Positions 2,303 through 22,748 of a stretch of DNA of 42,698 nt are shown here, piece after piece. The stretch is taken from positions 1-42,698 of the forward strand of contig CAMUXV010000007.1 in assembly GCA_947164795.1 (NCBI GenBank). The letters are read 5' to 3'. The position numbers and the translations under genes were made by a program. The notes below the pieces were generated by a model. The model made no database searches. It saw only the letters and a list, made by a program, of their open reading frames with translations, and was not told the origin of the DNA. Each line of letters starts with the position of its first letter. The stretch's first letter is position 1. The stretch comes from an uncultured Caryophanales bacterium. GTDB lineage: Bacteria > Bacillota_I > Bacilli_A > RF39 > UBA660.

Positions 2303-2322
2303 ATAATTAAGGAGGAAGTAAA

Positions 2323-5141: not shown

Positions 5142-5972
5142 ATGAATTTAAAAGCTTCAATGAAGAAATTTTTAGGTAACAAGAATACTGTTACTATACT
5201 AGGGGTAGTATTATGTTTAGTAATACTGTATATTGGTTATAATTATCGTATTAATTCTCAAGTTGAATTAGTACAAGTACCTTATGCTAAGGTTACTATA
5301 CAACCTAGAACTTATATTACTAACGATATGATTGGTACTATGAATGTTCCTAAATCCTTTCTTGTTGGTAAGTATTATTCTACAATTAATGGACTTATAG
5401 GTAAGTATTCTAATTATAATACCGTTATATCTAAAGGAAGTTTATTCTATGCTGATTTAGTAGTGGATGCTAAGGATTTACCTGATTCTGCTTTTATGAA
5501 TGTTCCACAGGGTTCTACTGTTATTATTTATCCGGTTAATATTTATACTACTTATGCTAATTCGATGGCACCGGGAAGTCATATTAATATTTACTATAAA
5601 TCTCTAAATGATAATGGCGAAGTTATGTTTGGTAAATTTATTAGTAATATTGAAATATTGGATGTTAAGGATTCTTCAGGTAGACATGTATTTGAAAATA
5701 GTGAAGAAACTAGAACTCCTGCTTATTTATTGTTTGCTGTACCAGAAGAAACACATTTACTTCTTAGAAAGGCTTTATATTTAAATGATTATGGTGTTGA
5801 ATTAATACTTATTCCTAATACTGAGACTTTGACTGAGAATGATACTGTACATGTAAGTAGTTCTCAAATAGAAGAATTTATTAATTCTAAAACTGCTTTT
5901 GTTTCTGTCGATGATTTACCTCAAATTAGTGGGCAAGTAGTTGAAGAAAGTAATGTACAAACTAATGAATAA
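5142..5972 (+). CDS. cpaB: CpaB/RcpC-type SAF-domain pilus assembly protein
   Basis: A 276-residue protein, ATG 5142 behind AAAAGGAGG. A membrane helix occupies residues about 17-34. It is followed by a SAF domain (about 45-110) with the CpaB signature VPYAKVTIQPRTYITNDMI and then VPKSFL. In Tad systems CpaB/RcpC sits outside the membrane next to the pilus channel. In Gram-negatives it stabilises the secretin; in monoderms, which have no secretin, its partner is unknown. The C-terminal half (PAYLLFAVPEETHLLLRKAL) matches the second conserved block of the family. It is directly upstream of cpaF, the usual Tad order. Confidence 0.85.
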   Translation: MNLKASMKKFLGNKNTVTILGVVLCLVILYIGYNYRINSQVELVQVPYAKVTIQPRTYITNDMIGTMNVPKSFLVGKYYSTINGLIGKYSNYNTVISKGSLFYADLVVDAKDLPDSAFMNVPQGSTVIIYPVNIYTTYANSMAPGSHINIYYKSLNDNGEVMFGKFISNIEILDVKDSSGRHVFENSEETRTPAYLLFAVPEETHLLLRKALYLNDYGVELILIPNTETLTENDTVHVSSSQIEEFINSKTAFVSVDDLPQISGQVVEESNVQTNE

Positions 5973-6006: not shown

Positions 6007-7275
6007 TTGGACGAACAATTTAGTCAAATTGATTTTGGACCTTTAAAACAATTTTTAGACAATGATGATGTAACAGATATATCTTATGATAATGGTGGAC
6101 AAGTATGGTTGAAGACATTATCTAAGGGTGTATTTAGGGTAGAAAATACTGGCATTGATAATGCGCTTATGGAAAAGATTGCCTTTCAATGTGCTAATTC
6201 AATGGGTAAATCGTTTAATATGGCTAATCCAATGTTAGATGCTGAATCTACTGAACTTCGTATGAATTTTTTGCACGATTCTATAGCTAAAAATGGAATA
6301 GCTGTACTTATAAGAAAAACACCCGCTAAAATTAGATTGGAAAAAGAAAAAATTATTAAAGAGGATTATATTAGACTTAATATTCATGACTTTTTACTTA
6401 AATGTGTAGAAGGACATTGTAATATTATTGTTAGTGGAGAGACTGGTTCTGGTAAAACAGAATTTATCAAATATTTAGCTGCTCATACTAAAGAAAATGA
6501 AAAGCTTATTACTATTGAGGATACTTTGGAACTTCATTTGGATAAGATATTTCCTTATAGAGATATTGTTGCTATGAAGACTAATAATATTGCATCTTAT
6601 TCTGATATATTAGTGGCGTGTATGAGACAGAATCCTAGATGGATATTATTATCGGAGGTTAGAAGTGCTGAAGCAGTTATGGCTGTGAGAAATTCTATTT
6701 CTTCTGGACATAATATTTTATCGACAATACATGCTGATAAAGCAGAATCAATTCCAAATAGAATGTATAGTTTATTGGAGACTAATCAAGATGTTACTCA
6801 GTTTTTAGCTACTATTCATAGATATGTTCAACTTGGTGTTCATATTAAGGGATATTTTAGTACTAAATATAATGCTTTTCATAGAGAAGTATCCGAGGTT
6901 GTAGAGTTTTATGTTGATGAAAATAATAATCCTAAATCAAAAACTTTATATAAGAAGACCCCTGATGGTAAGGAAATGATTGCTAATCCTTCTAGATATT
7001 TGATCGGATATTTGGAAACACAGGGTGTTATTATTCCTAGTGATATTCTTATAAAAGAAGAATTTAAGGATGCCAGTCATTATGTTGTAGATAATAGTAG
7101 TAATAGCGATAATTCTACATTTGTTCAAGATGTTAGTAATGTACAAAGGGTATCAAATATTAATACTAATATTCAGAGTAATGTTATGCCAAATATTTAT
7201 GCTTCAAGTAATCAAGTAAATAGTTCGGGATATACTCCTAATGCTGTTAATGTGACTGGTATTAATAATGGATAA
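6007..7275 (+). CDS. cpaF: CpaF/TadA (VirB11-like) secretion ATPase
   Basis: A 422-residue hexameric motor ATPase of the type II/IV secretion superfamily. The start is TTG 6007, 6 bases behind a strong AAAGGAGGGG; no ATG is better placed. Seen: Walker A GETGSGKT (about residues 144-151), Asp box TIEDTLEL, Walker B region RWILLSEVRSAEA and His box GHNILSTIHADKAES. Most CpaF proteins read GEVRGxE in the Walker B region; here it is SEVRSAE. The last 75 or so residues are a Ser/Asn-rich low-complexity tail not typical of the family. Followed by tadB/tadC, it would drive Tad pilus assembly; as a VirB11 relative it could also serve the T4SS genes downstream (inference). Confidence 0.92.
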   Translation: MDEQFSQIDFGPLKQFLDNDDVTDISYDNGGQVWLKTLSKGVFRVENTGIDNALMEKIAFQCANSMGKSFNMANPMLDAESTELRMNFLHDSIAKNGIAVLIRKTPAKIRLEKEKIIKEDYIRLNIHDFLLKCVEGHCNIIVSGETGSGKTEFIKYLAAHTKENEKLITIEDTLELHLDKIFPYRDIVAMKTNNIASYSDILVACMRQNPRWILLSEVRSAEAVMAVRNSISSGHNILSTIHADKAESIPNRMYSLLETNQDVTQFLATIHRYVQLGVHIKGYFSTKYNAFHREVSEVVEFYVDENNNPKSKTLYKKTPDGKEMIANPSRYLIGYLETQGVIIPSDILIKEEFKDASHYVVDNSSNSDNSTFVQDVSNVQRVSNINTNIQSNVMPNIYASSNQVNSSGYTPNAVNVTGINNG

Positions 7276-7289
7276 GAGGTGATTAAGTA

Positions 7290-8183
7290 GTGGAAATTAT
7301 TTTAATTGGTTTAATTATTATATTTATTATTTCTTATCGTACTAAAAGAGGAGAATCTGTATACAAATTTATTTCTCAGCAGGCTATTAATACTTATAAA
7401 AAAATTGAGCCTTATTCTTTTAAGGTTATGAGAGAAAAAGTTAAAGAGTTAGGCCTTGAATATAGTCCTAGACAATATTTATTTCAAGTATTATTATTTG
7501 CGAGTTTAGCTGGTGGTATTAGTTATCTATATTTTTATAATATAATTATTTCGATTGTTTATATAGTTATTGCTATTGCTTTTATTCCATATGTTACTTA
7601 TTTAAGGTGTAAAAGACAGTATAGTGAATATTTATTTGAACAAGTACAGGTTTATTGTACTAATACTATAATGGAATTTGCCACTACGCAAGCTTTTGTT
7701 AAAAGTTTAGAAGGAGTAGTAGAGTCTGGATTACTTGAAGAGCCTTTACTTAGTGATGTGAGAATGATGATTGCTTTGTCTTATGAAAAAGGTGATGTTT
7801 ATGATTCAATTAAATATATGGATACTAAATATCCGTACTATATGGTTAAAAATATGCATCAATTATTTTTGCAAGTAACTAAAGAGGGTGCTAAAGATAC
7901 TCAGGGTACTTTTGAAAATATGCTTACTGATATTGATGTATTAGTAGAGGGTGTATATAGAGATAGAACGGATAGAGCTAATTTCCATAGACAATTTGTA
8001 ACTTTTGGTGTTGCTTTATATGGTATGATAGCACTTATTCAAATACTTATTGGTCAAGAGACTTATATAGCGATGGTGGATAATATGATTATTAGAATAT
8101 TTGTTCATTTAGTTGTTATTGTTAATAGTTATTTTCTTCTAGCAGGAGAAAAATATTATAACGAGAATGTAGGTGCTGAGTAA
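7290..8183 (+). CDS. tadB: TadB-like inner-membrane platform protein
   Basis: A 297-residue protein, GTG 7290 behind AGAGGTG. Membrane helices lie at the N-terminus (residues 1-15), about 68-100 and two near the C-terminus (about 238-290). They flank a cytoplasmic helical domain (about 105-230) of the type II secretion F/GspF kind, with the typical sequence KYPYYMVKNMHQLFLQV. TadB and TadC together form the membrane platform that couples CpaF to pilin assembly. The stop overlaps the tadC start by one base (TAATG), indicating coupled translation. Confidence 0.8.
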   Translation: MEIILIGLIIIFIISYRTKRGESVYKFISQQAINTYKKIEPYSFKVMREKVKELGLEYSPRQYLFQVLLFASLAGGISYLYFYNIIISIVYIVIAIAFIPYVTYLRCKRQYSEYLFEQVQVYCTNTIMEFATTQAFVKSLEGVVESGLLEEPLLSDVRMMIALSYEKGDVYDSIKYMDTKYPYYMVKNMHQLFLQVTKEGAKDTQGTFENMLTDIDVLVEGVYRDRTDRANFHRQFVTFGVALYGMIALIQILIGQETYIAMVDNMIIRIFVHLVVIVNSYFLLAGEKYYNENVGAE

Positions 8184-8968
8184 TGTATATAGAAATGCTC
8201 CTAGTGGCTGTCATTGCTTTATATATACTTATGGTCAATGGTAAAATAAGTGGGGATATTAGTACTAATAATAAATTGTGTAATTTATTAAAAGAAAAAG
8301 ATTATGACTTTTTACTTATTGCTAAATATGGTGATAGGGTGTATAATCCTAATGAAGTATTTATGAAAAGAATAAAGAATGGTATATTGGTATCAGTTGC
8401 TCTGATATTTCTATTCTTAACTCAAATGAGTTATTTGGGTATTATATTAGCATTGGTAATAGGATATGTTGTTTATAAAATGCAATATTTAAGTTTAAGA
8501 AAATGGTATAAGGTACATCTTAATTATATAGATTCACTTTTACCGTATTATTTAAAGACTTTAGAGGTGTTAATTCATCATTATACTGTACCTGTAGCGA
8601 TTGCCAGAAGTATAGATGATGCACCTGAAGTATTTAAACCAGGATTAAAAAGACTTATTGAAAAAATAGAAAAAGGTGATTCTTCTGTTGATCCTTATAT
8701 GGATTTTGCTAAAGAATATCCAGTAAGGGATTCGATGAGAATGATGAGATTATTATATAGATTGAGTCTTGGTGAACAAGAAAAGAAACATGAACAATTA
8801 ACTTCATTTTCTAAATCTGTTTCATCTCTTCAAGCTAAAGCTAGAGAAATTAAGTATAAGGGTAGACTTGATGCTATGGAAAGAAGAACTATGGTAATGA
8901 TGGTTGTTACTGGTGGAGGTTCTTTATTACTACTATTGATTTCAATTTTTATGTTAATTTCAATATAA
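8183..8968 (+). CDS. tadC: TadC-like platform protein
   Basis: A 261-residue protein beginning at ATG 8183 within the tadB stop. Helices are at the N-terminus (about 1-17), about 69-96 and the C-terminus (about 236-260). A GspF-like cytoplasmic domain between them reads YIDSLLPYYLKTLEVLIHHY and later MRMMRLLYRLSLGEQEK. It is shorter than most TadC proteins but has the expected architecture and position. The next two genes encode pilin-like proteins, completing a minimal Tad set apart from a prepilin peptidase. Confidence 0.78.
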   Translation: MYIEMLLVAVIALYILMVNGKISGDISTNNKLCNLLKEKDYDFLLIAKYGDRVYNPNEVFMKRIKNGILVSVALIFLFLTQMSYLGIILALVIGYVVYKMQYLSLRKWYKVHLNYIDSLLPYYLKTLEVLIHHYTVPVAIARSIDDAPEVFKPGLKRLIEKIEKGDSSVDPYMDFAKEYPVRDSMRMMRLLYRLSLGEQEKKHEQLTSFSKSVSSLQAKAREIKYKGRLDAMERRTMVMMVVTGGGSLLLLLISIFMLISI

Positions 8969-9672: not shown

Positions 9673-10695
9673 ATGGATACTGTTATTGGTAATAAGTATT
9701 TAGATATTTTTAATAATCTTGATATAGAGGTTTCTAAAAAAATGGAAGGCGAATATGAAGTTGACGAAATTATTAATTCTTTTGGTAATTTCTTCTTTAA
9801 TAGAATGTTTTTAGATATTACTTCAATTAAAAATTATAAAGATATTTCTAATTTGAAAAAATTATCTATGAATATCGATATGAGTAAAGTAATACTTTTG
9901 TTGGATAAGGAAGATGCTATTAGTAAATCTGATGTATTTTTGTCTAATTTGGTTAGTATGGGTATTTATAATTTTACTTCGGATAGTAATAATTTAATGT
10001 ATCTTTATAATAATCCTAATATATATCGTGATGTTGCTCATTATCAAGATATTGATAATAATAAAATTGATAATAATGTTTCTGAGACTGCTATCTCTTA
10101 TATGTTTACTTCAAAGAAAAAAATAGTGCTTGGTATTAAAAATGTTACTGATCATGCAGGTGCTACTACTTTTTCTTATTTGATTAAAAAAGTAGTTGAT
10201 AGTTATTACAGTACTATGATAATTGAGATAGATAGAAGAGATCTTACTTTCTTTAATGATAATAATGTTTTATCTATTAGAGATGATGAATTTAAAGATG
10301 TACTTAATAAGTATAATGAGGTAGATTTATTTGTTGTTGATTTAAATAAATCTAAAAATGATAATTTATGTACTGCTATCTTGTATTTAATTGAACCTTC
10401 TATGTTTAAATTAAATAAGTTATCTAGTATTAATCCTAGTATTTTTAATGAGGTAAGGAATAAAAAAATTGTATTAAATAAAATATTGTTAGATAGCAAA
10501 GATATTAATAATTTTGAAAATGAATCTAACTTGAAAGTATTTTATAACGTTGGTTCTATATGTGATAGAGAAAATAATACTGATATTTTTGGGCCTTTGC
10601 TTGTCAAACTTGGATATATTAAAGATGATATTGTTAATGAAGTAGTAGGGGAACATACTAATAAAAAAAGTATATTTGATATTTTTAAAAAATAG
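9673..10695 (+). CDS. TadZ/CpaE-like ATPase-fold protein with degenerate P-loop
   Basis: A 340-residue cytoplasmic protein starting one base after the previous stop. Residues about 1-125 resemble the atypical receiver domain of TadZ/CpaE (ISNLKKLSMNIDMSKVILLL). From about residue 148 a ParA/MinD-type fold begins with KKIVLGIKNVTDHAGATTFS, followed by MIIEIDRRDL and VDLFVVDLNKSK, which match the strands after the P-loop and Walker B. The P-loop reads AGATT where a classical deviant Walker A has GGxGKT, so the nucleotide-binding Lys is absent, as in several TadZ proteins. In Tad systems TadZ/CpaE places the apparatus at the pole. Assignment rests on fold pattern and neighbours. Confidence 0.6.
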   Translation: MDTVIGNKYLDIFNNLDIEVSKKMEGEYEVDEIINSFGNFFFNRMFLDITSIKNYKDISNLKKLSMNIDMSKVILLLDKEDAISKSDVFLSNLVSMGIYNFTSDSNNLMYLYNNPNIYRDVAHYQDIDNNKIDNNVSETAISYMFTSKKKIVLGIKNVTDHAGATTFSYLIKKVVDSYYSTMIIEIDRRDLTFFNDNNVLSIRDDEFKDVLNKYNEVDLFVVDLNKSKNDNLCTAILYLIEPSMFKLNKLSSINPSIFNEVRNKKIVLNKILLDSKDINNFENESNLKVFYNVGSICDRENNTDIFGPLLVKLGYIKDDIVNEVVGEHTNKKSIFDIFKK

Positions 10696-10753: not shown

Positions 10754-11293
10754 ATGCAGATTATGGCTGCAGTTGATATATGTACTAATGAGTATGCACC
10801 CGTATGGAATATAGTTGGATTTGTTGTGAATGTTATTAGAATAGGAATACCTATTGTATTAATATTATTTGGTATGATAGATTTAACTAAGGCTGTTATT
10901 GCTAATAAAGAAGATGAAGTAAAGAAAGCTACTAAATTACTTGGTAAGAGGTTTTTATATGCAGTTGGAGTATTTGCTTCTGTATGGATTGTTACTTTTG
11001 TATTAGATTTAGCAGCGGGTACTATTGGTAAAAATAATAGTGATTATAAATATGATGAATCTTCTTGGAAAAAATGTTGGGCTTTAATTAATGGCGATGA
11101 TGTTGATGGTGTTATACAAGAAAATAATAATGCAGCTGAAAAAGCATGCTATATGATTAAAAATAGAACTGGGGAAATATATTCTTGGGAAGAAAAGGAC
11201 AAAGTAAATGGTAAAGATGGTTATACTTTGATTCCAGGAATTAATTCTCCTGGTGATTGTAATAAGAAGAATGAAGGTATTAGTATACAATAA
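10754..11293 (+). CDS. VirB2/TrbC-like two-helix membrane protein, copy 1
   Basis: A 179-residue protein. ATG 10754 lies 9 bases after GGAG; an in-frame TTG at 10745 is less likely. Two long hydrophobic helices (about residues 17-49 and 66-93) flank a charged loop, NKEDEVKKATKLLGKR. This is the size and topology of VirB2/TrbC-type pilins and of related two-helix proteins in Gram-positive T4SS. The stretch after the second helix (about 85 residues, with Cys in KKCWAL, EKACYM and PGDCNK) is an outside tail absent from classical VirB2. The core is very similar to the next gene, so the two arose by duplication. A role as T4SS pilin or channel component is inference. Confidence 0.6.
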   Translation: MQIMAAVDICTNEYAPVWNIVGFVVNVIRIGIPIVLILFGMIDLTKAVIANKEDEVKKATKLLGKRFLYAVGVFASVWIVTFVLDLAAGTIGKNNSDYKYDESSWKKCWALINGDDVDGVIQENNNAAEKACYMIKNRTGEIYSWEEKDKVNGKDGYTLIPGINSPGDCNKKNEGISIQ

Positions 11294-11345
11294 TTTTAAT
11301 ATGTTTATTTCTTTTATAAAAAATATAAAAAACAATTAATTTTAT

Positions 11346-11374
11346 TTGACATTTAATATACTTTGATGTAGAAT
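11346..11374 (+). promoter_or_regulatory. Strong sigma-A promoter of the second VirB2-like gene
   Basis: Perfect -35 TTGACA (11346-11351), 17-base spacer, -10 TAGAAT (11369-11374), then AAGGAGG and ATG 11405. It is one of the two best -35 boxes in the window. Confidence 0.75.
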
Positions 11375-11404
11375 ATAATTATAGTAATTAAGGAGGAGTT
11401 ATAT

Positions 11405-11788
11405 ATGATTAATGTTTTAGCTACTTATATCTGTGGTGCCGCTAGTAGCATTAAACCAGTATGGAATATTGTTGGATTTATTATTAATGCTATCATGATT
11501 GGCGTGCCTATTTTACTTATCATTTTTGGTATGATTGATTTAGGCAAAGCTGTTATTGCTAGTAAGGAAGACGAAGTAAAGAAAGCTACTAAATTACTAG
11601 GAAAAAGATTCCTATATGCAATTGGTGTATTTGCAATTGTATGGATTGTAACATTTATTTTAGGTACAATAGCAAATATGGCTGACGAAAATTATACTTA
11701 CAATGAAGATTCTTGGCAGAAATGTTGGAAATGTAATATTAGAAAAACTGTAAGTATTGATTCTGATTATTGTAAATCAAATGAGTAA
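11405..11788 (+). CDS. VirB2/TrbC-like two-helix membrane protein, copy 2
   Basis: A 127-residue paralogue of the preceding protein. The segment PVWNIVGFIINAIMIG, the loop SKEDEVKKATKLLGKRFLYA and the second helix align almost residue for residue with copy 1. It lacks most of the long outside tail, ending instead in a short Cys-containing stretch (QKCWKCNIRK, SDYCKSNE). It is the only gene of the block with its own near-consensus promoter and a strong terminator on either side, so it can be made in excess of its neighbours, as expected for a major structural subunit. A VirB2-type pilin is the best guess. Confidence 0.6.
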   Translation: MINVLATYICGAASSIKPVWNIVGFIINAIMIGVPILLIIFGMIDLGKAVIASKEDEVKKATKLLGKRFLYAIGVFAIVWIVTFILGTIANMADENYTYNEDSWQKCWKCNIRKTVSIDSDYCKSNE

Positions 11789-11793
11789 TTTAT

Positions 11794-11828
11794 AAAAGAA
11801 ATTATTAAAATGTAATTTCTTTTTTTTT
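11794..11828 (+). terminator. Strong terminator after VirB2-like copy 2
   Basis: A perfect 11-bp stem AAAAGAAATTA (11794-11804) / TAATTTCTTTT (11813-11823), 8-base loop, and T-run through 11828. Confidence 0.8.
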
Positions 11829-11844
11829 AATTGTATGATATAAT
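11816..11844 (+). promoter_or_regulatory. Candidate promoter of the fused VirB2-module gene
   Basis: Extended -10 TGATATAAT (hexamer 11839-11844) with a weak -35 TTTCTT (11816-11821) at 17 bases, overlapping the terminator's right arm. It is followed by TCGGAGG and ATG 11886. Confidence 0.45.
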
Positions 11845-11885
11845 GATAATGATTTAAAATATTTTATTTGTCGGAGGATATTATT

Positions 11886-13931
11886 ATGAGAAAAAAACTT
11901 ATATTATTAGTTGTTTTAATAGTTTGTTTGTTTATATATATTGGTAGAGCAAATGCTGTTGTTATGTGGATGCAATGTACTGCTGGTGAAAATGATTTAT
12001 ATATACAGAATAGACATCCTAATGCTGATAGGGTTGGGGTTGGTAATTTTGCGTGGGATGTTTTAGAATTTGCTGGAATTGAAAACTTACAAGATGCATA
12101 TGCAAAGTATAATACAATTGTTACAATTAATGGATATCATTCTACCTCTGGCGTTAAAAGGGTTTTTTATGTTGGTGGTAATGAAGGTGTCAGTACTAGA
12201 TTTTTTGATGTTCATGGCCCTGTTTATTTTGCTCAAAGGGAGGGACATAGGGCAGACAAATTTGATAATAATGTTTGTTGGTATAAAAATGATGGTGGTA
12301 GCTTCTTGGCTGGCGGAGATGATATGACTGAATGCGAAGAAGACGACAATATTGGCTTTTTAGATCCTTCTGAAATAGATAAAGGATTTTGCCCTGAAGC
12401 TTTATATATAACCACTGGTGGAAATACCGGAGGTGCAACAAAGGGGGATTTTATAGTTGCAACTGGTAAAACACAGGCTCCTGTTTCTCCTGAAGTATTA
12501 AATGGTTATAAGCTTGTTATTTATAAAACTAAAACACAGATTGATACTAATATGTGGGTTATGGAGGTATATAATAATGCAGGTATTTATGCAGCAATGT
12601 ATGGCATAAGTTTTCAAGAATTTCTTGATTCGCTGCAAAAATATAAACCTAAAGATAATGCTGAGAAGGTGGTAGTTAACGGCTTACTTATAGCTGCTAC
12701 TGACAAGCGATATGCTTTTTATATTCCGTCATTTTTATTAGGAGTGCCTGGTATAAGTAATTATGAATATGGGGAGGCCCATGCTATTTTAACTTCGGAT
12801 TATTTAAGCGATGCTGAATTTGTTGATTGGACACAACATACTTTGTTAGTAAAACTGTCAAAATTAGGCAAGAATTTTTATAAAATAACTGAATCTGATA
12901 AGTATCCCGAGGTTCTTTTGGGAAATATTACTGAGCAACGTGTAATATCAAATACTGTTCGTAATTCATCTGCAGGGGACAAAACATATTGGAAAGAAGT
13001 TAAAGAGTGGCTAGATGATAATAATTCTTTTATTGAAAATGATGAAGAATTCTCTAAGTTTAATGAAGGAAAAGAATATGGTGATTTGATAGCTGATGCT
13101 GAAAAGGCTACTGAGGCATTTGATTCTCAAAATAAGTATGATCTTTCGAAAGAAAAAAATGGAGCAATTGATTTTCAAAGCTATTTTGACGAATTAGAAG
13201 GAGCATATACGATTATAGAAAAACTTGCTTATAATGCAGGATACGAAAAAAGAAATCCTGATTGTAAAATTTCTGAAGATAAAAGCAATGATTCAACAGA
13301 ATCATTAAGAGATTCTGTTTCTTGTCAAATATTTGGAAAACCATTTACAAATATGGTTGCTGATTCTGCATTTGATTCGGAAAAATTAGATGATGTAATA
13401 ATTGAAGTTTTTTCACAATCTTTGGAGGATCAATTAAACATTTTAATTGGAAATAATAATTCTTTGCTTAATCATAATGGTATATTGAAAGATTATACAA
13501 TTAAACTTTTAAAACTAGCATATTATATCAAAACAAATTATTCAGAGGAACTTAGTGGCGAGCAAATGGAAAGATTAAATAGTATAATTTCTAATTATGC
13601 CCAATTGGCTAGGAATAAATATGGTGCTGAAGTTATTGTTGATTGCGATACTTTGCTAGGAGAGGATTTTTTAAATAAAATAGGTAAATATGTTGATATT
13701 ATTAAAATAGCTATTCCAATTATTCTAATAGGATTTGGTGTTTTAGATTTTTCTAAAGCTGTTTTTGCTGGTAATGATGATGAAATGAAGAAAGCACAAA
13801 AGAAGTTTTTGATGCGTATTGTTATTGCGGTATTATTCTTTTTATTACCATTTATTTTGAAAATTTTATTAAGTATTGCAAATAAGGCTTGGTATTTTAT
13901 TTCTCCTAATAGTTGCAATATTATAAAATAA
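11886..13931 (+). CDS. Large secreted protein with C-terminal VirB2-like membrane module
   Basis: A 681-residue protein. ATG 11886, 8 bases after GGAGG, is preferred over an upstream TTG. A signal peptide (residues 1-23, ending ANA) leads to about 570 outside residues with Cys in MQCTAGE, NVCWYKN, TECEEDD, GFCPEA, NPDCKIS and VSCQIFG. The C-terminus (about 605-675) holds two helices around the loop AGNDDEMKKAQKKFLMR, preceded by AIPIILIGFGVLDFSKAVF. This is recognisably the same module as the two preceding small proteins (IPIVLILFGMIDLTKAV). So a pilin-like module is fused to a large ectodomain. The ectodomain belongs to no family I recognise. It may cap or anchor the fibre or channel (inference). 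Confidence 0.6.
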   Translation: MRKKLILLVVLIVCLFIYIGRANAVVMWMQCTAGENDLYIQNRHPNADRVGVGNFAWDVLEFAGIENLQDAYAKYNTIVTINGYHSTSGVKRVFYVGGNEGVSTRFFDVHGPVYFAQREGHRADKFDNNVCWYKNDGGSFLAGGDDMTECEEDDNIGFLDPSEIDKGFCPEALYITTGGNTGGATKGDFIVATGKTQAPVSPEVLNGYKLVIYKTKTQIDTNMWVMEVYNNAGIYAAMYGISFQEFLDSLQKYKPKDNAEKVVVNGLLIAATDKRYAFYIPSFLLGVPGISNYEYGEAHAILTSDYLSDAEFVDWTQHTLLVKLSKLGKNFYKITESDKYPEVLLGNITEQRVISNTVRNSSAGDKTYWKEVKEWLDDNNSFIENDEEFSKFNEGKEYGDLIADAEKATEAFDSQNKYDLSKEKNGAIDFQSYFDELEGAYTIIEKLAYNAGYEKRNPDCKISEDKSNDSTESLRDSVSCQIFGKPFTNMVADSAFDSEKLDDVIIEVFSQSLEDQLNILIGNNNSLLNHNGILKDYTIKLLKLAYYIKTNYSEELSGEQMERLNSIISNYAQLARNKYGAEVIVDCDTLLGEDFLNKIGKYVDIIKIAIPIILIGFGVLDFSKAVFAGNDDEMKKAQKKFLMRIVIAVLFFLLPFILKILLSIANKAWYFISPNSCNIIK

Positions 13932-13946
13932 ATGAGGTGATGATAA

Positions 13947-16007
13947 ATGATTTTTCATTTTAGTGTATTTAACGATATTTCATTTGCAATTGAACAGGCT
14001 TTAAGAAGCTTAATAGGATCTCTAGCTGGTTTCTTATATGATTATATTGTTGAACTTTTTAATGTTTTTATGTATATTGCAAGAGCAGAAATTTTAGATA
14101 ATGCTTATGTTAAACTTGTATATACAAGGGTGGGAATGATCTTAGGATTATTTATGTTATTTAAGCTTTCTTTTACTCTTATTCAATCTTTGATAAATCC
14201 TGATAAATTTACTGATAAGAAAAATGGATTTGCTGCTGTTATAACTAGAATTATTATAGCTATAGTTTTGCTTGGTGTTACACCTTCAATTTTTAGATTT
14301 GCTTTAAATTTTCAAAGCGTTATAGTAGGTTCTAGTGGAGACAATAATAATGTTTTATATAAAATTGTTGTTAATAATGATGTTATAGAGGCAGATACAA
14401 AAACTTTTGGAAATAGGCTTGCTACAGATTTATTTTTTAGTTTTTTTAGGGAAAAAACTGATGTTCATATGCCTTCGGAAGTTCAAACTATATGCGATCT
14501 TGATGCAAATTGTGTATTTAAAGTTATTGGTTATAATACGTTGAAGAGGGATGCATACGATGGAAAAATAAAATTTAAGGATTTGGTTCCTTATTTATCT
14601 ATACGTGATAATGGATATTATGTATATGATTGGGATATTATATTGTCTGTCGGTGTTGGTGTAGCCATTTTATGGATTTTGATTAATTATTGTATAAGTA
14701 TAGCAACACGTGTTATACAGATTGCTTATTTGCAGATAATATCTCCTATTCCAATTCTATCTTATATTAGTGATCCTGATGGTGCTTTTAAGAGATGGTT
14801 AAAACAGTGTTCTACAACATATTTAGAATTGTTTTTGAGATTAGGAATAATATATTTTATTGTTACCGTTTGCAATGCTGTTTTAGAGACTATTAATAAT
14901 AGTGAATCTGATTTTTTTATCAGTAGTGGACTTCAGGAAGGTACAACACAATATACACTTGTGAAGCTATTTATTATTCTTGGCTTGTTAATGTTTGGAA
15001 AAAGAGTTCCAGAACTTATTAAAGACTTATTCCCTGGTGATGGTAAATTTGATCTTGGTATTAAAAGTCCTAAAAAATTGTTTGGTGAAATACCTGGTAT
15101 TAATACTGCCTATGGTGTTGCAAAAGGTGCTGCTACATTTGGAGCAGGTGCATTAGCTGGTGGTGCTGTTGGTCTTATTGGAGGGCGTGGATTTTTTGGC
15201 CGTGTAAGTGGATTGTTTGGTGGTTTAACTAAAGGTGGAATTAGTGGTGCTAAGGGTACTAAACTATCAGATATTATTGCTAATAGAGCCTCTATGAATA
15301 AACAACAGAGAATAAATGCTGCAAATGGCTCTACTTGGGCAGGTAGATTTGCTGAGAATCTTTTTGATAAACTTGGCTTAGAAAATTCAGTAGAAGGTCT
15401 TGATAGGATGATACATAATATTGACTTAGAAAATCGAAGAATAGATGATGATATTCAACTTAATGATCTTGATCCAATAAGAGTTCAAACACAAAGAAAT
15501 GATGCAGTTCTTAATGCCAGAAAAGCGATTGTCAGTGAGATAGATAGTCAGCTTCTTAGGGAAGATAATAATGAAGCAATAGCAGTTAGTACAAGACATT
15601 ATCGCGATTTGTTAAATTCGGCTGTGGAGAGATATAATCGTTCGGGTAGCGATGTTGACCTTAGAGCACTTGAACGTGCTAGAACTGATTACTATGATCA
15701 ACTAGAAGTTTCTAGAGCACAATACTTTAATGCGCATAGAGAGAATAATGCTACAATCGCACGTAATATGCAAGTTGTTCGTGATCAATCAGGTCAAGAA
15801 GTTTATTTATGGGGTGATTTAACTAGAGTTAGGAATGAAGCTAGAACGGCTAATGCTAATATGTCTGCAGACATTGCTAGACTTGATTATGAGAAAGAAG
15901 AACTTAATAGAACTAAAGAAGCAAATAATAGACAAAAAGATACGCTTGAGCGTAGAAAAATTGTTTCACAGGCTGATATTGATGCTAATAAAAATAAACA
16001 ACATTAG
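13947..16007 (+). CDS. VirB6/TrbL-like polytopic T4SS channel protein
   Basis: A 686-residue protein, ATG 13947 behind GAGGTGATG. Residues 1-375 or so hold six or seven membrane helices with a polar outside loop (about 120-225), including helices at about 62-85, 95-118, 229-252 and 290-315, and the conserved-looking RVIQIAYLQIISPIPILSYI. This is the layout of VirB6/TrbL-type proteins that form the inner-membrane T4SS channel. After a Gly/Ala-rich stretch (AAATFGAGALAGGAVGLIGG kind, about 392-430) comes a charged cytoplasmic domain of about 250 residues with predicted coiled coil (DYEKEELNRTKEANNRQKD). It is followed by the VirB3-like and VirB4 genes, the usual T4SS order. Confidence 0.72.
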   Translation: MIFHFSVFNDISFAIEQALRSLIGSLAGFLYDYIVELFNVFMYIARAEILDNAYVKLVYTRVGMILGLFMLFKLSFTLIQSLINPDKFTDKKNGFAAVITRIIIAIVLLGVTPSIFRFALNFQSVIVGSSGDNNNVLYKIVVNNDVIEADTKTFGNRLATDLFFSFFREKTDVHMPSEVQTICDLDANCVFKVIGYNTLKRDAYDGKIKFKDLVPYLSIRDNGYYVYDWDIILSVGVGVAILWILINYCISIATRVIQIAYLQIISPIPILSYISDPDGAFKRWLKQCSTTYLELFLRLGIIYFIVTVCNAVLETINNSESDFFISSGLQEGTTQYTLVKLFIILGLLMFGKRVPELIKDLFPGDGKFDLGIKSPKKLFGEIPGINTAYGVAKGAATFGAGALAGGAVGLIGGRGFFGRVSGLFGGLTKGGISGAKGTKLSDIIANRASMNKQQRINAANGSTWAGRFAENLFDKLGLENSVEGLDRMIHNIDLENRRIDDDIQLNDLDPIRVQTQRNDAVLNARKAIVSEIDSQLLREDNNEAIAVSTRHYRDLLNSAVERYNRSGSDVDLRALERARTDYYDQLEVSRAQYFNAHRENNATIARNMQVVRDQSGQEVYLWGDLTRVRNEARTANANMSADIARLDYEKEELNRTKEANNRQKDTLERRKIVSQADIDANKNKQH

Positions 16008-16029: not shown

Positions 16030-16350
16030 GTGAATGGATATTTAGTACCTGCTAATGCTAAGAAGGGTACACTTATACTTAATGTTTTTAGACCTATTGA
16101 TGCTATTATATTTGGTGTTGGAGCTTTTATATCTTTGCTTTTGTTTGTTATTATTAATTCTAGTAGTACTTTCTTAATTCTTATTGCTTGCTTACCTGTT
16201 GCAGTAACTGGATTTTTGGTTATTCCAATACCTAATTATCATAATGTATTATGTGCTATACAGAGCATATATAGGTTTTTTATGGGAAGAAGAAATTATA
16301 AATGGAGAGGTTGGTGTTTTTATGAAAAATTCGGCAAAGAAGACAAATAG
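16030..16350 (+). CDS. VirB3/PrgI-like small T4SS membrane protein
   Basis: A 106-residue protein, GTG 16030 behind AAAAGGAGTG. Two adjacent membrane helices (about 24-47 and 50-68) are followed by a basic cytoplasmic tail ending SIYRFFMGRRNYKWRG. Small two-helix PrgI/VirB3-type proteins lie just before VirB4 in nearly all Gram-positive T4SS, and PrgI-family members share this length and the Pro-containing second helix. Its 3' end overlaps the next gene by 29 bases in another frame, which indicates coupling. Confidence 0.7.
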   Translation: MNGYLVPANAKKGTLILNVFRPIDAIIFGVGAFISLLLFVIINSSSTFLILIACLPVAVTGFLVIPIPNYHNVLCAIQSIYRFFMGRRNYKWRGWCFYEKFGKEDK

Positions 16351-16876
16351 TGGTTTTACTGAAGATTGGGTTCCTATTAGTTCTATTGCGAATGGTTGTA
16401 TTGTTTTGAATAATAAAATTAAAGTCACTGGTGTTAAAATTAAACCTAGAAATATATTTATTCTTGATCAAGCTACACAAGATAATGTAATAGTGGCTTT
16501 AAAAAACTTTTATAATATGATTGATTTTGAATTTTGGCTTATTAGTGCTGATAGACCTGTAGATCTTAATGCTTATTTAGCTAGATTACAGTTATTATAT
16601 AATCAGAGTACTAGTCCAGCTATTAGGAAACTTATTAATCAGGATATTGATAAAGCTAATTCTTTTATGGATAATAATATTACTGATACTGAGTATTATA
16701 TATTATTTAGGGAGAAGAATGATGATTTGATTCAGAAGAGACTTAGAACTTTGATTACTGGTTTAGCTAATAGTGGGTTAGAAGCTGTTCAAACTTCTAA
16801 TGATGATTTGAGAGTAATTCTTGATAATTTTCTTAATAGTGGAATGACTACTAATTTTAAGGTGGTGACTTCGTAA
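16322..16876 (+). CDS. VirB4 N-terminal domain as a separate protein
   Basis: A 184-residue protein. ATG 16322 follows a GGAGAGG site inside the preceding gene; an open frame further upstream is only overlap. The segment VPISSIANGCIVLNNKIKVT, followed by a helix (QDNVIVALKNFYNMID) and FEFWLISADRPVDLNAYL, matches the first domain of Firmicute VirB4 proteins, whose N-terminus typically has an I-x-DG-x-(I/V)-x-L-x-(N/D) strand pair. There is no P-loop here. The stop overlaps the start of the VirB4 ATPase gene by one base (TAATG), so the two chains are made together. I read the pair as a VirB4 divided in two genes, from pattern and order. Confidence 0.65.
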   Translation: MKNSAKKTNSGFTEDWVPISSIANGCIVLNNKIKVTGVKIKPRNIFILDQATQDNVIVALKNFYNMIDFEFWLISADRPVDLNAYLARLQLLYNQSTSPAIRKLINQDIDKANSFMDNNITDTEYYILFREKNDDLIQKRLRTLITGLANSGLEAVQTSNDDLRVILDNFLNSGMTTNFKVVTS

Positions 16877-18660
16877 TGAATTTTAAAAGTGAAATTGCTC
16901 CTAAGGGGTTACAATTTAATCCTTCGGATTTTGTTATTAGTGATAAGTATGCAACTATTTTAACAGTTATTTCTTATCCTAGATTTATTGGACCTGGTTA
17001 TTTGTCTAATCTTACTAATATGTCTGGTGTTAAGCTTGTAGTTAAACATATTCCTGTGTCTTTTAGTGTTTTATCTAAGATGCTTAATAAAGAGATATCT
17101 GATTTAAGAAGTAGATATCAACAGGAAAAGGATAGAACTATTCAAGAAAGAATTAGACAAGATGTTGATTCTCTAGAGTATTTTATCCAGCAGTTTACTG
17201 CTTCTCAAGCTAAAACTTTTGATTTTCAGATGCATATTATGATTACTGCTGATACTAGAGAAGAACTTGAAATGAAAAAAGTTAATGTTAAAAACTATAT
17301 GGATGCTATGGAACTTAGAGCTATTCCTTTAAGATTTGAGCAAGAAAGAGTATTTAAGTCTATGCTTCCTATATTTGAAAAGCAAGTAGTGGAGGATAGG
17401 ATAGGTACTCCAATGCCTTCTCCTACAATGGCTGCAATGTATCCTTTTATCTTTGATAGTATTAAGGATGATGGATTATCTACTTTACTTGGTGTTGATT
17501 TTTCTGGGGGAGTAGTATTATTTAATCAATTCTTGTATCAACTTAGAAAAGAGAGTAATAGGAATAATGCTAATATGATTATGCTAGGTACTTCTGGTAG
17601 TGGTAAGAGTACTGCGGCTAAATTAATTCTTAGAAGTCATATTAGAAATGGATATCAAATTGTTGCTGTAGACCCTGAGGGTGAAATTAGTGAAATGACC
17701 AGAATGTATGGTGGAGATGTAGTGGACCTTGGTAAAGGTGGAGAATACGGTATGGTCAATCCACTTGAGGTTATTATGGATGCAGATGAAACTGAAATTC
17801 AAAATGGTCTTGGATATACTGTTCTTAATAAGACATTGCAATCGTTAAAAGCGTTTATGAAGTATTATTCTCCTGATATTGAAGAAGATGTTTTGGCTTT
17901 ATTTAGTGAAGTTGTTCAAGATACTTATGCTAGGTTTGGTATTACATTTACTAGTGATTTTTCAAAATTTACTTCAGATGATTATCCTATATTTAGTGAT
18001 GTATATGTTACTGTTACTAGTAAACTTACTTCTATGACAGAGAAGACTCACGAAAGAGATGTTATGGAAAGGCTTGAACTTAAACTTAGACCTTTAGTTA
18101 GAGAGCTTCAATATTATTTTAACGGTAAAACTTCTATAAATACTGATAGTGATTTTTTAGTATTTAATATTAAGGAACTTATGAATTCTGATGCTAATAT
18201 TCGTAATGCTCTATTATTTAATATTCTTAAATTTGCTTGGGGATTATGTTTAAATCCTGATGTTAATACTATTTTATCTGTTGATGAAGCTCATGTTCTT
18301 TTGGGAGCTAAAAATGAACTTGGTGCTGAATTCTTAGCACAAGTTCAAAGAAGAGCAAGAAAATATAATACTGGTACTATTATAATTACTCAGCAACCAT
18401 CTGATTTTGTTGCTGATGGAATTCTTATGCATGGTAAGGCTATATTTGATAATTCATCTTATTATTTAGTAATGGGATTGAAAAAACAATCAGTGGATGA
18501 TTTATCTATGCTTATTGATTTAAATGATAATGAAAAAGAAGCTATTAAGAGGTTTAGTCAGGGTGAAGCATTATTTGTTTGTGGTAATAGAAGAATGCAA
18601 ATTAATGTTATTGCTACTGATGATGAATTAGAATCATTTGGCTCTGGTGGTGGATTATAG
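16876..18660 (+). CDS. virB4: VirB4/TraC-type T4SS ATPase
   Basis: A 594-residue ATPase, the central energiser of type IV secretion. Seen: Walker A GTSGSGKS (about residues 238-245), the following DPEGEISEM motif, Walker B TILSVDEAHVLLG (Asp-Glu at about 470-471), then QVQRRARKYNTGTIIITQQP, the conserved arginine and QQP motif of VirB4/TraC/HerA-family enzymes. The stretch before the P-loop (about 235 residues) is shorter than in full-length VirB4; the missing first domain is encoded by the overlapping upstream gene. The end GSGGGL is a short flexible tail. An M23 hydrolase gene follows after 27 bases. Confidence 0.93.
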   Translation: MNFKSEIAPKGLQFNPSDFVISDKYATILTVISYPRFIGPGYLSNLTNMSGVKLVVKHIPVSFSVLSKMLNKEISDLRSRYQQEKDRTIQERIRQDVDSLEYFIQQFTASQAKTFDFQMHIMITADTREELEMKKVNVKNYMDAMELRAIPLRFEQERVFKSMLPIFEKQVVEDRIGTPMPSPTMAAMYPFIFDSIKDDGLSTLLGVDFSGGVVLFNQFLYQLRKESNRNNANMIMLGTSGSGKSTAAKLILRSHIRNGYQIVAVDPEGEISEMTRMYGGDVVDLGKGGEYGMVNPLEVIMDADETEIQNGLGYTVLNKTLQSLKAFMKYYSPDIEEDVLALFSEVVQDTYARFGITFTSDFSKFTSDDYPIFSDVYVTVTSKLTSMTEKTHERDVMERLELKLRPLVRELQYYFNGKTSINTDSDFLVFNIKELMNSDANIRNALLFNILKFAWGLCLNPDVNTILSVDEAHVLLGAKNELGAEFLAQVQRRARKYNTGTIIITQQPSDFVADGILMHGKAIFDNSSYYLVMGLKKQSVDDLSMLIDLNDNEKEAIKRFSQGEALFVCGNRRMQINVIATDDELESFGSGGGL

Positions 18661-18669
18661 TTTTAATAT

Positions 18670-18689
18670 ATGAAGTGAGGTGGCTTCAT
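18670..18689 (+). promoter_or_regulatory. Hairpin with SD in loop and start codon in stem (M23 gene)
   Basis: ATGAAG (18670-18675) can pair with CTTCAT (18684-18689). The loop TGAGGTGG holds the SD (GAGGTGG) and the right arm includes the first bases of the ATG at 18688. This could modulate translation of the hydrolase; it is a short 6-bp stem, so the effect is uncertain. Confidence 0.4.
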
Positions 18690-19635
18690 GAAAAAAAATA
18701 TAAATAAAGAAGAAAATAGAGTTTCTAAAAATAGTGATATTAGGGGTATTGTTAATAATAATTTAAGAAATAATGACAGTGTTAAAAAGGCAGATAGTGA
18801 TAGTATTGCTAATGAACAACCAAATAGTCAAGAAGTTATTAATAGTTCATTGGATAATTTTGATGAAGTAGATACTAGTAAAGAATTAAAGGCAGGAATT
18901 AAATTAGTCAGAAAAATTATTCGTATTATTATTATTCCTATTTTAATTTCTGCTTTTTTCTTTTTACTAATCTTCATTGCTATAATTACAGTACTTTATA
19001 TGCTTGATATATTTGATATTGATTCTAGTTCTAGTGGAAGTAATAATATTACTTATGACTTGTCGTCATATGTTTCTACTACTGATAATAATGATTATTG
19101 GTGGCCTATTGGTAGTAGAGAAACTACTACCATAGATGGAAAATTATTTGCAATGGGTGATCCTGGCTCCAATGAGCTTTCAGCTTATTTTAATGGTAAT
19201 GATGAAGTACACAAAGGGCGTCATTTTGGTATAGATATTAGTGCGGGCATTAATGAAGAAAATGTAATTGCTTCAAAGGATGGAAAAGTAATATATCCAT
19301 ATGCTGACTCTCCAATTGATATTGGTACGTGTCAAGATTATTATGGTGCAAGAATTAACTGTTCTGGATATGGTAATTATGTTATGATTGAGCATAATGA
19401 TGGTGCTGTTACTTTATATGGTCATATGTATGAAAATTCTATTACTGTGAGAGAAGGAGATATTGTTAAGCAGGGGCAAGTAATTGGTAAGAGTGGATCA
19501 TCTGGTGATTCCACTGGAGGCCATTTACATTTTGAAATTAGACCTAATGGTACTCCTGTTGATCCGTTGGATTATGTTTCTGCTAATAATCCTAGACCAG
19601 GTAAGACTTATTATCAGAGAGATGTTATTAATTAA
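18688..19635 (+). CDS. M23 peptidoglycan hydrolase of the T4SS
   Basis: A 315-residue membrane-anchored endopeptidase. A polar cytoplasmic N-terminus (residues 1-75, Asn/Ser/Lys-rich) precedes one membrane helix (about 80-107). A Ser-rich linker and an LytM/M23 domain (about 165-300) follow. Zinc ligands are visible in GRHFGIDIS (His, Asp) and GHLHFEI (His-x-His), with YGHMY between them, so the site looks intact. M23 enzymes cut peptide cross-links in peptidoglycan. Gram-positive conjugation systems carry such an enzyme at this position to open the wall, replacing VirB1. The start ATG 18688 is unambiguous. Confidence 0.88.
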   Translation: MKKNINKEENRVSKNSDIRGIVNNNLRNNDSVKKADSDSIANEQPNSQEVINSSLDNFDEVDTSKELKAGIKLVRKIIRIIIIPILISAFFFLLIFIAIITVLYMLDIFDIDSSSSGSNNITYDLSSYVSTTDNNDYWWPIGSRETTTIDGKLFAMGDPGSNELSAYFNGNDEVHKGRHFGIDISAGINEENVIASKDGKVIYPYADSPIDIGTCQDYYGARINCSGYGNYVMIEHNDGAVTLYGHMYENSITVREGDIVKQGQVIGKSGSSGDSTGGHLHFEIRPNGTPVDPLDYVSANNPRPGKTYYQRDVIN

Positions 19636-20560: not shown

Positions 20561-20585
20561 AGTGTTAGTTTGTGGAGGTATATAT

Positions 20586-22748
20586 ATGAAAATTAAGGTA
20601 GAAAAGAAAGATTTGATTATTTTTATTTGTTTTTGTTTCTTTTTGTTATATCTTTGTGCTATAGGTGTACTTAATGTTGCTAATATTTTTTCTACTGGTA
20701 AATTTTATGGTTTTTTACCTTTTATGGCATTTACTGGTAAGTATATTGGAGCGACTTTTTTATTATTTATTGTTTCGCTTATTGGTATCTTTTTGGCTGT
20801 TAAATCTTATATCTTTAGTAGTGATAAGGGCGGATTTGGACTTAGTATTGGTGCAAAAAAAGAAAAAGGATATTCTAGATGGGCTACTGACAGTGAATTT
20901 AAAAAAGGACTTGATGTTGTTAACATAAAGGATAGTAGTATACCTGCTGCAGGTATTGCTTTATATAGTAAAAAAGGCAAAATGTGGGTTGATAATGGTG
21001 AAGATCATTATTTAGTAATGGGTGCTACTGGTAGTGGTAAAACTGTTATTGTTGCGAAACCAATGATAAAGCTTCTTGCTAAGCATAATGAGTCGATGAT
21101 TTTAACTGATCCTAAAGGTGAATTGTATGAGGAGACAGCTGAAATATTAAAAGAAGCTGGTTATAATATTGTTACTTTGAATTTTAGAGATCCACAGCAT
21201 GGTAATGCTTGGAACCCGATGAGTTTGCCCTATAAATTATATAAAGAGGGAAATACTGATAAAGCTATTGAACTTTTAGATGACTTAGCTCTTAATATTC
21301 TATATGAAGAGAAGAGTAGTGGTGATCCTTTCTGGGAAAAAACTGCAGCGGATTATTTTACTGGTTTAGCATTGGGTTTATTTGAAGATGCTACTCCTGA
21401 ACAAGTTAATTTAAATAGTTTAAATTTAATGTGTAGTTTAGGTGAAGAAAGATTTGGTGGACCTAATAATAATTATATTAAAGAATATTTTAATGGTAAG
21501 GATCCTTCTAAACCTGCTTATATTAATGCTTCTGGTACGGTATTTACTGCAGATGAAACTAAGCAAGGTATTATTGCTACATTTAAGCAAAAAATTAAAT
21601 TATTCTCTTCTAGGGAAAATTTATCTGAGATGCTTTCTTATAGTGATTTTGATATGAGGGACATTGGTAGAAAGAAAACTGCGGTATTTTTAATTGTACA
21701 AGATGAGAAGAAAACACTTCATCCACTTGCTACAATATTTATTAAACAGTGTTATGAAACTCTTATAGATGTTGCTCAAGAATCTGGAGGAAAACTTCCA
21801 TTTAGAACTAATTTTATTTTGGATGAGTTTGCTAATATGCCACCTTTAAAGGATGTTACTACAATGGTTACTGCTGCGAGAAGTAGACTTATTAGATTTA
21901 CTTTTATTATTCAGAACTTTGCACAGCTTACTCAAGTATATGGTAAAGAAAACGGAGATACTATTCGTGGTAATTGTAATTTGTTGTATTTAATTAGTAG
22001 TGAAATTGCTGCTCTTGAAGAGATTAGTAAAATGTGTGGTGAAGTTAAATCTAAAGAAAAAGATAAAACTGCTTCGACACCTCTTGTAACTGTTAGTGAT
22101 TTACAAAGACTTAGCAAGTTTGAAATTATTGTTTTAAGAAGAAGATTATTTCCTTATAAGACTAGATTTCAAACTGACTTTGAGGTTGATTGGGGAAAGA
22201 GTTATCCAAATTCTACTCCTCCAACTAGAGAAAAGAAAACTGTTGAACTATTTGATATAAGAGAGTTTGTTAAAGCTAAAAAGCAAGAAAAGATGGCTAA
22301 TATGGAATCTTTTCAACCATCAGGTCCTTTTGGCGGGGCTAATCCTTTTATTGGAACTAGTCCATTTGGTGGTTCATCAATGGGAGGAAATCCATTTGCA
22401 GGTTCTAATCCATTTGGTGGTTCTGTTCCTAGTTTTATGAATGAGCCTATTAAATCAAATGATGATAGTGATGGCTTTAATATTGATGATTTAGTTAAGA
22501 AGATAGATGCTAAAATAGCGGAAATTGAAAAAGAAGAGGAACTTGCCAAAGAAAATAAGATATCTAATGATGTTTCATTAAAAGATTTAGTTCCTAATAA
22601 AACTATTGATGTTTCTATTGAAGATAATAGTGATGATAATAAAGAAACTACAGAGTTAAATAATAGTGTTGATAAAAGAGAAGTAACTACTGTATATGAA
22701 GATAATACTGATGATGACTTCTTTGATGATTTCTTTAGTGATGATTGA
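20586..22748 (+). CDS. virD4: VirD4/TraG-type coupling ATPase
   Basis: A 720-residue protein that would feed substrate (DNA or protein) into the T4SS channel. ATG 20586 follows GTGGAGG. Two membrane helices (about 8-32 and 46-74) precede the motor. Seen: Walker A GATGSGKT (about 146-153), LTDPKGELYEET, QDEKKTLHPLATIF and Walker B FILDEFANMPP (Asp-Glu about 413-414), in TraG/VirD4 order. After the motor (about 575 on) comes a low-complexity segment with repeated NPF/PFGG units (GANPFIG, TSPFGGS, GGNPFAG, SNPFGGS) and an acidic tail. The tail may be a docking region. It has its own promoter and terminator, so it can be regulated separately from the rest of the block. No relaxase is nearby. Confidence 0.92.
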   Translation: MKIKVEKKDLIIFICFCFFLLYLCAIGVLNVANIFSTGKFYGFLPFMAFTGKYIGATFLLFIVSLIGIFLAVKSYIFSSDKGGFGLSIGAKKEKGYSRWATDSEFKKGLDVVNIKDSSIPAAGIALYSKKGKMWVDNGEDHYLVMGATGSGKTVIVAKPMIKLLAKHNESMILTDPKGELYEETAEILKEAGYNIVTLNFRDPQHGNAWNPMSLPYKLYKEGNTDKAIELLDDLALNILYEEKSSGDPFWEKTAADYFTGLALGLFEDATPEQVNLNSLNLMCSLGEERFGGPNNNYIKEYFNGKDPSKPAYINASGTVFTADETKQGIIATFKQKIKLFSSRENLSEMLSYSDFDMRDIGRKKTAVFLIVQDEKKTLHPLATIFIKQCYETLIDVAQESGGKLPFRTNFILDEFANMPPLKDVTTMVTAARSRLIRFTFIIQNFAQLTQVYGKENGDTIRGNCNLLYLISSEIAALEEISKMCGEVKSKEKDKTASTPLVTVSDLQRLSKFEIIVLRRRLFPYKTRFQTDFEVDWGKSYPNSTPPTREKKTVELFDIREFVKAKKQEKMANMESFQPSGPFGGANPFIGTSPFGGSSMGGNPFAGSNPFGGSVPSFMNEPIKSNDDSDGFNIDDLVKKIDAKIAEIEKEEELAKENKISNDVSLKDLVPNKTIDVSIEDNSDDNKETTELNNSVDKREVTTVYEDNTDDDFFDDFFSDD

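Follow-up and report, generated by a model that had tools for sequence, protein, structure and literature searches.

The window analysed here is a stretch of 42,698 nucleotides from an uncultured Caryophanales bacterium (contig CAMUXV010000007.1, contig 7 of the 879 kb, 76% complete assembly GCA_947164795.1), and it carries an operon with genes of a type IV secretion system (T4SS). In this operon two small pilin-like proteins, termed class A, are followed by a 681-residue secreted protein, termed class B, which ends in the same two-helix module. Our favoured reading, which we hold to be probable if by no means certain, is that class B acts as a minor pilin of the T4SS which docks on VirB6 and, in the manner of VirB5, presents a variable surface domain at the machine's stalk or tip. 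It builds on the homology of the modules, a conserved gene position, conserved cysteines, a signal peptide, a conserved terminator-like hairpin and a fast-evolving ectodomain.

A two-helix module common to class A and class B

The genes and elements concerned are the following.

10754..11293, + strand: class A pilin 1, 179 amino acids (aa), module near the N-terminus, unusually long C-terminal tail (BLASTP, ribosome binding site)
11346..11374, + strand: promoter-like site TTGACA-17-TAGAAT ahead of pilin 2, 11/12 matches, best of 41; the number of such sites is not above chance
11405..11788, + strand: class A pilin 2, 127 aa, candidate major pilin, predicted helices 17-51 and 55-92
11794..11823, + strand: hairpin and T run resembling an intrinsic terminator, between pilin 2 and class B, -9.2 kcal/mol, z -4.35
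11886..13931, + strand: class B pilin, 681 aa, with signal peptide, large ectodomain and C-terminal module
11886..11957, + strand: signal peptide of class B, residues 1-24, ending ...RANA, A24 near-invariant in 69 orthologues
11958..13643, + strand: ectodomain of class B, residues 25-586, N-terminal region with conserved C31 and C169 (C...CP motif), then helical at 366-579
13644..13916, + strand: pilin module of class B, flanking C587 and C677, helices 592-627 and 631-672
13947..16007, + strand: VirB6-like membrane protein (NF045848, 2.4e-13, under the model's own cut-off)

A first-pass annotation of this DNA had proposed three consecutive open reading frames (ORFs) with one module in common and had quoted the loop sequences. 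All three were found in place with these loops, each behind a good ribosome binding site (AGGAG before ATG 10754, AAGGAGG before ATG 11405 and CGGAGG before ATG 11886). BLASTP bore out the common module, aligning the C-terminus of the 681-residue protein (residues 597-668; 597-665 with pilin 1) significantly with both pilin 1 (43% identity, E 2e-7) and pilin 2 (42% identity, E 2e-8). Concordantly, class A (60 orthologues) and class B (69) matched in a profile-profile comparison with a probability of 99.8 and an E-value of 1.6e-30 over 85 columns. Chance likeness of hydrophobic helices was excluded on the grounds of polar invariant residues, these E-values and synteny.

The annotation had also described the first two proteins as recent paralogues and the third as more diverged, which agrees with the 72% identity that the two small pilins have across 95 aa (E 5e-47). 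For 109 of 116 A-type and 95 of 102 B-type modules the nearest neighbour belonged to the same class. This indicates that the third module comes from an old, separate lineage and that A and B are paralogues of long standing. A recent duplication of the neighbouring pilin followed by fusion was therefore rejected.

Among relatives, the cut-off of PF18895 (T4SS_pilin; 26.6 bits) was passed by L016 (30.7), L038 (28.3) and L053 (39.1), and PF18895 matched 16/69 class B proteins at E<=0.001 and 23/60 class A proteins at E<=0.01. Judged by the sequence matches of these relatives above the cut-off, the module belongs with the T4SS_pilin family; the profile search thus pointed to T4SS pilins instead of an unrelated two-helix family. 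These proteins also resemble VirB2 in having a pair of long hydrophobic helices with a short charged loop between them (net charge about +3), and their genes adjoin virB6/virB4 of a T4SS. AlphaFold2 placed the helices at residues 17-51 and 55-92 in pilin 2 and at 592-627 and 631-672 in class B. A single comparison with TrbC of R751 gave no match. The residues D, R, P, F and two cysteines are invariant or nearly so, and one cysteine stands on each flank of the hairpin in 274 of 276 modules across all classes, which suggests a disulphide. As a separate observation, hhalign aligned residues 77-122 of the VirB6-like protein (window 14175-14312) with the module's loop and second helix at E 8e-4 and a probability of 24%, a hint that recalls the reported kinship of VirB2 and VirB6.

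The module was present in 106 of 117 genomes sampled from the order, all belonging to a single family. With the threshold unchanged, it was detected in 22/198 genomes of the class and 10/295 of the phylum, and every match again fell into that family, which implies that the module is a family trait within the sampled Bacillota. It was found together with the operon-type VirB4 in 97 of the 117 genomes, while 9 had neither and 11 only one of the two (p = 2.8e-7, uncorrected for kinship). Named relatives, reached via VirB4, were metagenome-assembled genomes of uncultured Bacilli/Tenericutes and 'Candidatus Onthousia'. A plasmid search at the protein level yielded 0 matches, and a scan of genome contigs with the 681-aa protein as query yielded nothing.

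Anatomy, proposed dosage and relatives of class B

To describe class B across the family, module proteins encoded directly 5' of virB6 were collected as the slot-B set, comprising 100 distinct complete cases. The module was C-terminal in all 100 and the VirB6-like gene adjoined directly downstream in every locus; among same-genus relatives 10/10 had class B upstream of VirB6, intact or cut by a contig end. The survey of relatives thus revealed the fusion as the rule in this family and not a one-off. The extension preceding the module measured 185-604 residues in 69/100 proteins and 20-110 in 31/100; ectodomain length differs by genus, and the window protein lies near the long end of the range. 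C587, R644 and C677 are invariant across the 69 aligned class B proteins.

Secretion of the 681-residue protein, another claim of the annotation, is supported by the N-terminal hydrophobic segment ending in ANA with its near-invariant A24. Segments of this kind were present in 66/69 long class B proteins, 14/115 class A proteins and 0/13 enzyme fusions in which the module comes first, a distribution expected if both ends of the hairpin face the outside.

Few parts of the operon evolve as fast as the ectodomain, whose median identity within the genus is 18%, compared to 49% for the B module and 92% for VirB4. Despite this divergence, the ectodomains have a Cys...Cys-Pro region in common, and the CP dipeptide occurred 88 times in them as against 13 +/- 3 in shuffled sequences. 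When a profile trained on half of the loci was run against 2,249 test ORFs, 10 of 10 matches (E <= 1) were module proteins of the operon. The AlphaFold2 model of class B (mean predicted local distance difference test score 53) comprises a low-confidence, beta-rich N-terminal part, the helices at 366-579 and the hairpin.

In the gap between class A and class B some loci contain a separate secreted ORF of ~360-530 aa, which was found in 10/25 loci with a short class B and in 5/47 others (p = 0.006, uncorrected for kinship; p = 0.014 without L181, one of the 10, which is an unrelated insertion). An ORF family ~360-390 aa long has an N-terminal membrane segment and ends in G(S/T)GTxxDPYxxK (L041:8782-9864, L167:5675-6838 and similar); it sits between class A and class B in some loci and is commoner where class B is short.

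Hairpins followed by T runs, like that at 11794..11823, recur at the A-to-B junction: 56 of 62 loci have one after their final class A gene, and 43 of these hairpins are strong. The frequency was 0-5% at most other junctions, with higher values from TadC to its following gene (22/63), between neighbouring class A genes (10/20) and between class B and VirB6 (10/99), all counts being uncorrected for kinship. In type IV pili, a terminator after the major pilin gene has been described as limiting the amounts of the pilus proteins encoded downstream (PMC11841053). The natural reading is that class A provides the major pilin and class B a minor component, and the prevalence of the hairpin at the A-to-B junction, together with its rarity at most others, is what would be expected if A were abundant and B scarce.

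The module is also joined to about ten families of extracellular enzymes. In the same genome, a 394-aa secreted protein on contig 35 (L002:631-1815) carries it near the C-terminus, and a 329-aa protein on contig 13 (L005:1426-2415) has the module first, followed by a CHAP domain. By eye, the N-terminal part of the former looks like a SleB-type wall hydrolase; it had no Pfam match. A scan of 50 further fusions gave CHAP (9), C39-like (6), GDSL (4), VanY (3), NlpC/P60 (2), S11 (1), YkuD (1) and GH99 (1), and one relative carries 16 modules. Many module-first proteins with diverse extracellular enzymes are dispersed (L247-L265), four of them in tandem in L247. The fused enzymes are mostly expected to act outside the cell, in agreement with the proposed outside topology. 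Tentatively, the pilin hairpin may be a general docking tag that loads the variable recognition domain of class B and enzymes that cut the wall or otherwise act outside the cell (CHAP, NlpC/P60, C39, VanY, D-Ala-D-Ala carboxypeptidase, L,D-transpeptidase, GDSL, GH99) onto a domesticated Tad/T4SS hybrid machine, a pilin-decorated surface apparatus contacting neighbour cells.

Proposed role of class B and its alternatives

On the favoured reading, class A proteins would be the abundant VirB2-like pilins of the machine, which may polymerise into a pilus, and class B a low-copy pilin paralogue exported via its signal peptide. Its hairpin would insert in the membrane with both ends outside and the cysteine pair closing the hairpin, and it would dock where pilins dock, most likely on VirB6, the product of the adjacent gene. 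For R388 it has been proposed that VirB2 pilins are recruited by a pentamer of VirB6, which carries VirB5, and that VirB5 is driven outwards by pilus growth (PMC9259494). By analogy, scarce class B might be the first to occupy the recruitment site on VirB6, which would bring the rapidly evolving ectodomain to the stalk or tip. Class B would then do the job of VirB5 in diderm T4SSs, namely contact with, or recognition of, another cell or surface, possibly in an adhesive role. The first-pass annotation had suggested that the large protein assembles through its module as an anchor or tip. Throughout the family the fusion keeps one place in the operon, after the pilins and before virB6, which speaks for assembly through the shared module, and the terminator-like hairpin supports scarcity of class B; its location at a tip or as an anchor is still what we infer. 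The fast-changing ectodomain fits contact with a variable partner.

Several results weigh against this reading. The window's own class B reached only 16.8 bits with PF18895 (E 0.0074, residues 596-661), under the cut-off, and its two small pilins did not match this model. A sequence search of the Protein Data Bank (PDB), solved conjugative pilins included, gave no match. A fold search with the AlphaFold2 model of the pilin (predicted local distance difference test score 74.5) returned generic membrane hairpins, and conjugative pilins were absent among the hits, which does not exclude them. The best Foldseek hit of the class B model had an E-value of 0.04 with no usable PDB match, leaving the ectodomain without an assignable fold, and the 31 slot-B proteins with only 20-110 residues ahead of the module imply that a large ectodomain is not essential to the slot. 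The co-occurrence and terminator counts carry no correction for kinship, and a filament, the tip location and the interactions of class B are arrived at by inference.

Three other explanations were weighed against the same evidence. The hairpin of class B and of the enzyme fusions might be a mere membrane anchor borrowed from a pilin gene, on surface proteins standing outside the T4SS. Two helices are enough to hold a protein in the membrane, and the dispersed wall-enzyme fusions lie far from the operon, as anchors would. However, a plain anchor need keep neither D, R, P, F and two cysteines (nearly) invariant nor a place between pilins and virB6 with a conserved terminator, and the modules track the T4SS genome by genome; we consider this explanation unlikely. 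It is likewise improbable that class B is built into the membrane platform as a structural component, either a VirB6 collar or a functional replacement of VirB8/VirB10, whose ectodomain spans the thick wall without recognising a target. An identity of 18% within the genus does not suit a simple structural spacer, nor does a length under 110 aa in a third of the loci, even though class B always adjoins virB6, a predicted helical segment (366-579) lies ahead of the module and length differs by genus as in a spacer.

A third possibility, that the T4SS handles class B and the enzyme fusions as substrates or effectors, with the module as recognition signal and not as structural unit, appears very unlikely to us. 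With up to 16 modules per genome on diverse hydrolases, the fusions do have the look of an effector repertoire, but the signal peptide of class B is of classical type and its gene keeps to a single operon slot, and enzymes already outside by the proposed topology would not need T4SS export. A gut Bacillota family has VirB2-like pilins in a fixed chromosomal machine, plus a second pilin class with its own ectodomain, and the enzyme fusions offer a testable case of a pilin as modular display tag.

The operon and comparison with known systems

In the family, the usual gene order is CpaB, TadA, proteins in TadB/TadC position, one or two small proteins and a CpaE-position protein, followed by one to several class A genes, class B, VirB6, a small TcpE/PrgI-like protein, VirB4, M23 and VirD4. 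The names TadA, CpaB, VirB4 and VirB6 are backed by profiles; TadB/TadC, CpaE, M23 and VirD4 follow from position or from reading the sequence. The remaining genes of the window's operon are:

5142..5972, + strand: RcpC/CpaB-like Flp-pilus assembly protein (PF16976 in 6 members of the orthologue set, best 4.8e-8)
6007..7275, + strand: TadA/VirB11-type ATPase (profile T2SSE, 2.5e-26)
7290..8968, + strand: two related polytopic membrane proteins in TadB/TadC position, named by position, without Pfam recognition
9673..10695, + strand: CpaE-position protein directly upstream of the pilins, named by position alone
16030..16350, + strand: small membrane protein, weakly TcpE/PrgI-like
16876..18660, + strand: VirB4-like ATPase (NF045975, 8e-106)
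18688..19635, + strand: membrane-anchored M23-type endopeptidase, by sequence reading and conserved position
20562..22748, + strand: VirD4-like coupling ATPase, by sequence reading and conserved position

VirB4 is seemingly split (16244-18660): a 210-aa ORF at 16244-16876 overlaps the start of the 594-aa VirB4 ORF, to which the VirB4 family model aligns only from model position 294, and a gap of ~500-560 bases ahead of VirB4 recurs in nearly all relatives. A second, unsplit VirB4 type of 785-804 aa, distinct from the chromosomal one and possibly located on mobile elements, occurs in a few genomes (G142, G083, G136, G052, G085, G148). Upstream of the operon lie two secreted proteins of no assigned function (window 1625-4227), the second poorly conserved within the genus.

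PF03432, the sole relaxase family searched for, was present in 9 of 58 family genomes, never at the T4SS locus, and in none of the contigs of the window's incomplete genome. A conjugative element was ruled out by the lack of a relaxase at the locus in this search and by the single conserved chromosomal locus. The operon is apparently a domesticated, relaxase-free chromosomal T4SS with a Tad-type ATPase and CpaB parts.

The annotation had known of no T4SS pilin fused in this way. Searches of openly licensed papers likewise brought up neither a T4SS pilin with an attached large ectodomain or enzyme nor a T4SS in the window's Bacilli family, which is no proof of novelty. According to recent papers, monoderm T4SSs generally lack VirB2 pilins, Patescibacteria excepted (PMC12857230, PMC12102498, PMC9905601), and the review PMC12857230 names Patescibacteria as monoderms with the potential for such pili. 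Nearest to the present case among described systems are the VirB2-like pilin arrays of Patescibacteria (PMC12102498) and the Ced/Ted systems. The former, like the T4SS_pilin family (PF18895), resemble the proteins studied here in short, two-helix tandem pilins beside virB6/virB4 of a chromosomal, mostly relaxase-free monoderm T4SS. The sections of PMC12102498 consulted describe no pilin with a fused large ectodomain or enzyme, and the present system differs in its Bacillota host, Tad-type genes in the locus and a dedicated ectodomain paralogue before virB6.

A TadA-type ATPase and RcpC/CpaB (PF16976) in the operon are shared with Flp/Tad systems, whereas the pilins are of T4SS type and TadB/TadC are recognised by position only; no Flp prepilin was identified, no prepilin model having been run. 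The archaeal DNA import systems Ced/Ted (PMC9905601) are likewise domesticated chromosomal T4SSs with a VirB2-like pilin and VirB6-like and VirB4-like proteins. In Ted the pilin gene lies directly upstream of the virB6-like gene, as here, and the VirB6-like protein there itself holds a pilin-like stretch. The sections of PMC9905601 consulted mention no large pilin-linked ectodomain, and TadA, CpaB and VirD4-like proteins are features of the Bacilli system.

Another close counterpart is VirB5/TrwJ, the stalk-tip protein of R388-type T4SSs (PMC9259494), like class B an exported component; VirB5 works with VirB6, and the class B gene adjoins virB6. VirB5 is a separate protein on VirB6 with no pilin fusion, whereas class B carries the pilin hairpin; the two are likened by role, and no relation in sequence or fold emerged. 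Because of its C-terminal hairpin, class B is not classed as VirB5, though its function may be comparable. Docking of class B on VirB6, if real, would offer a simple route to a recognition tip for a monoderm T4SS that has neither outer membrane nor VirB5.

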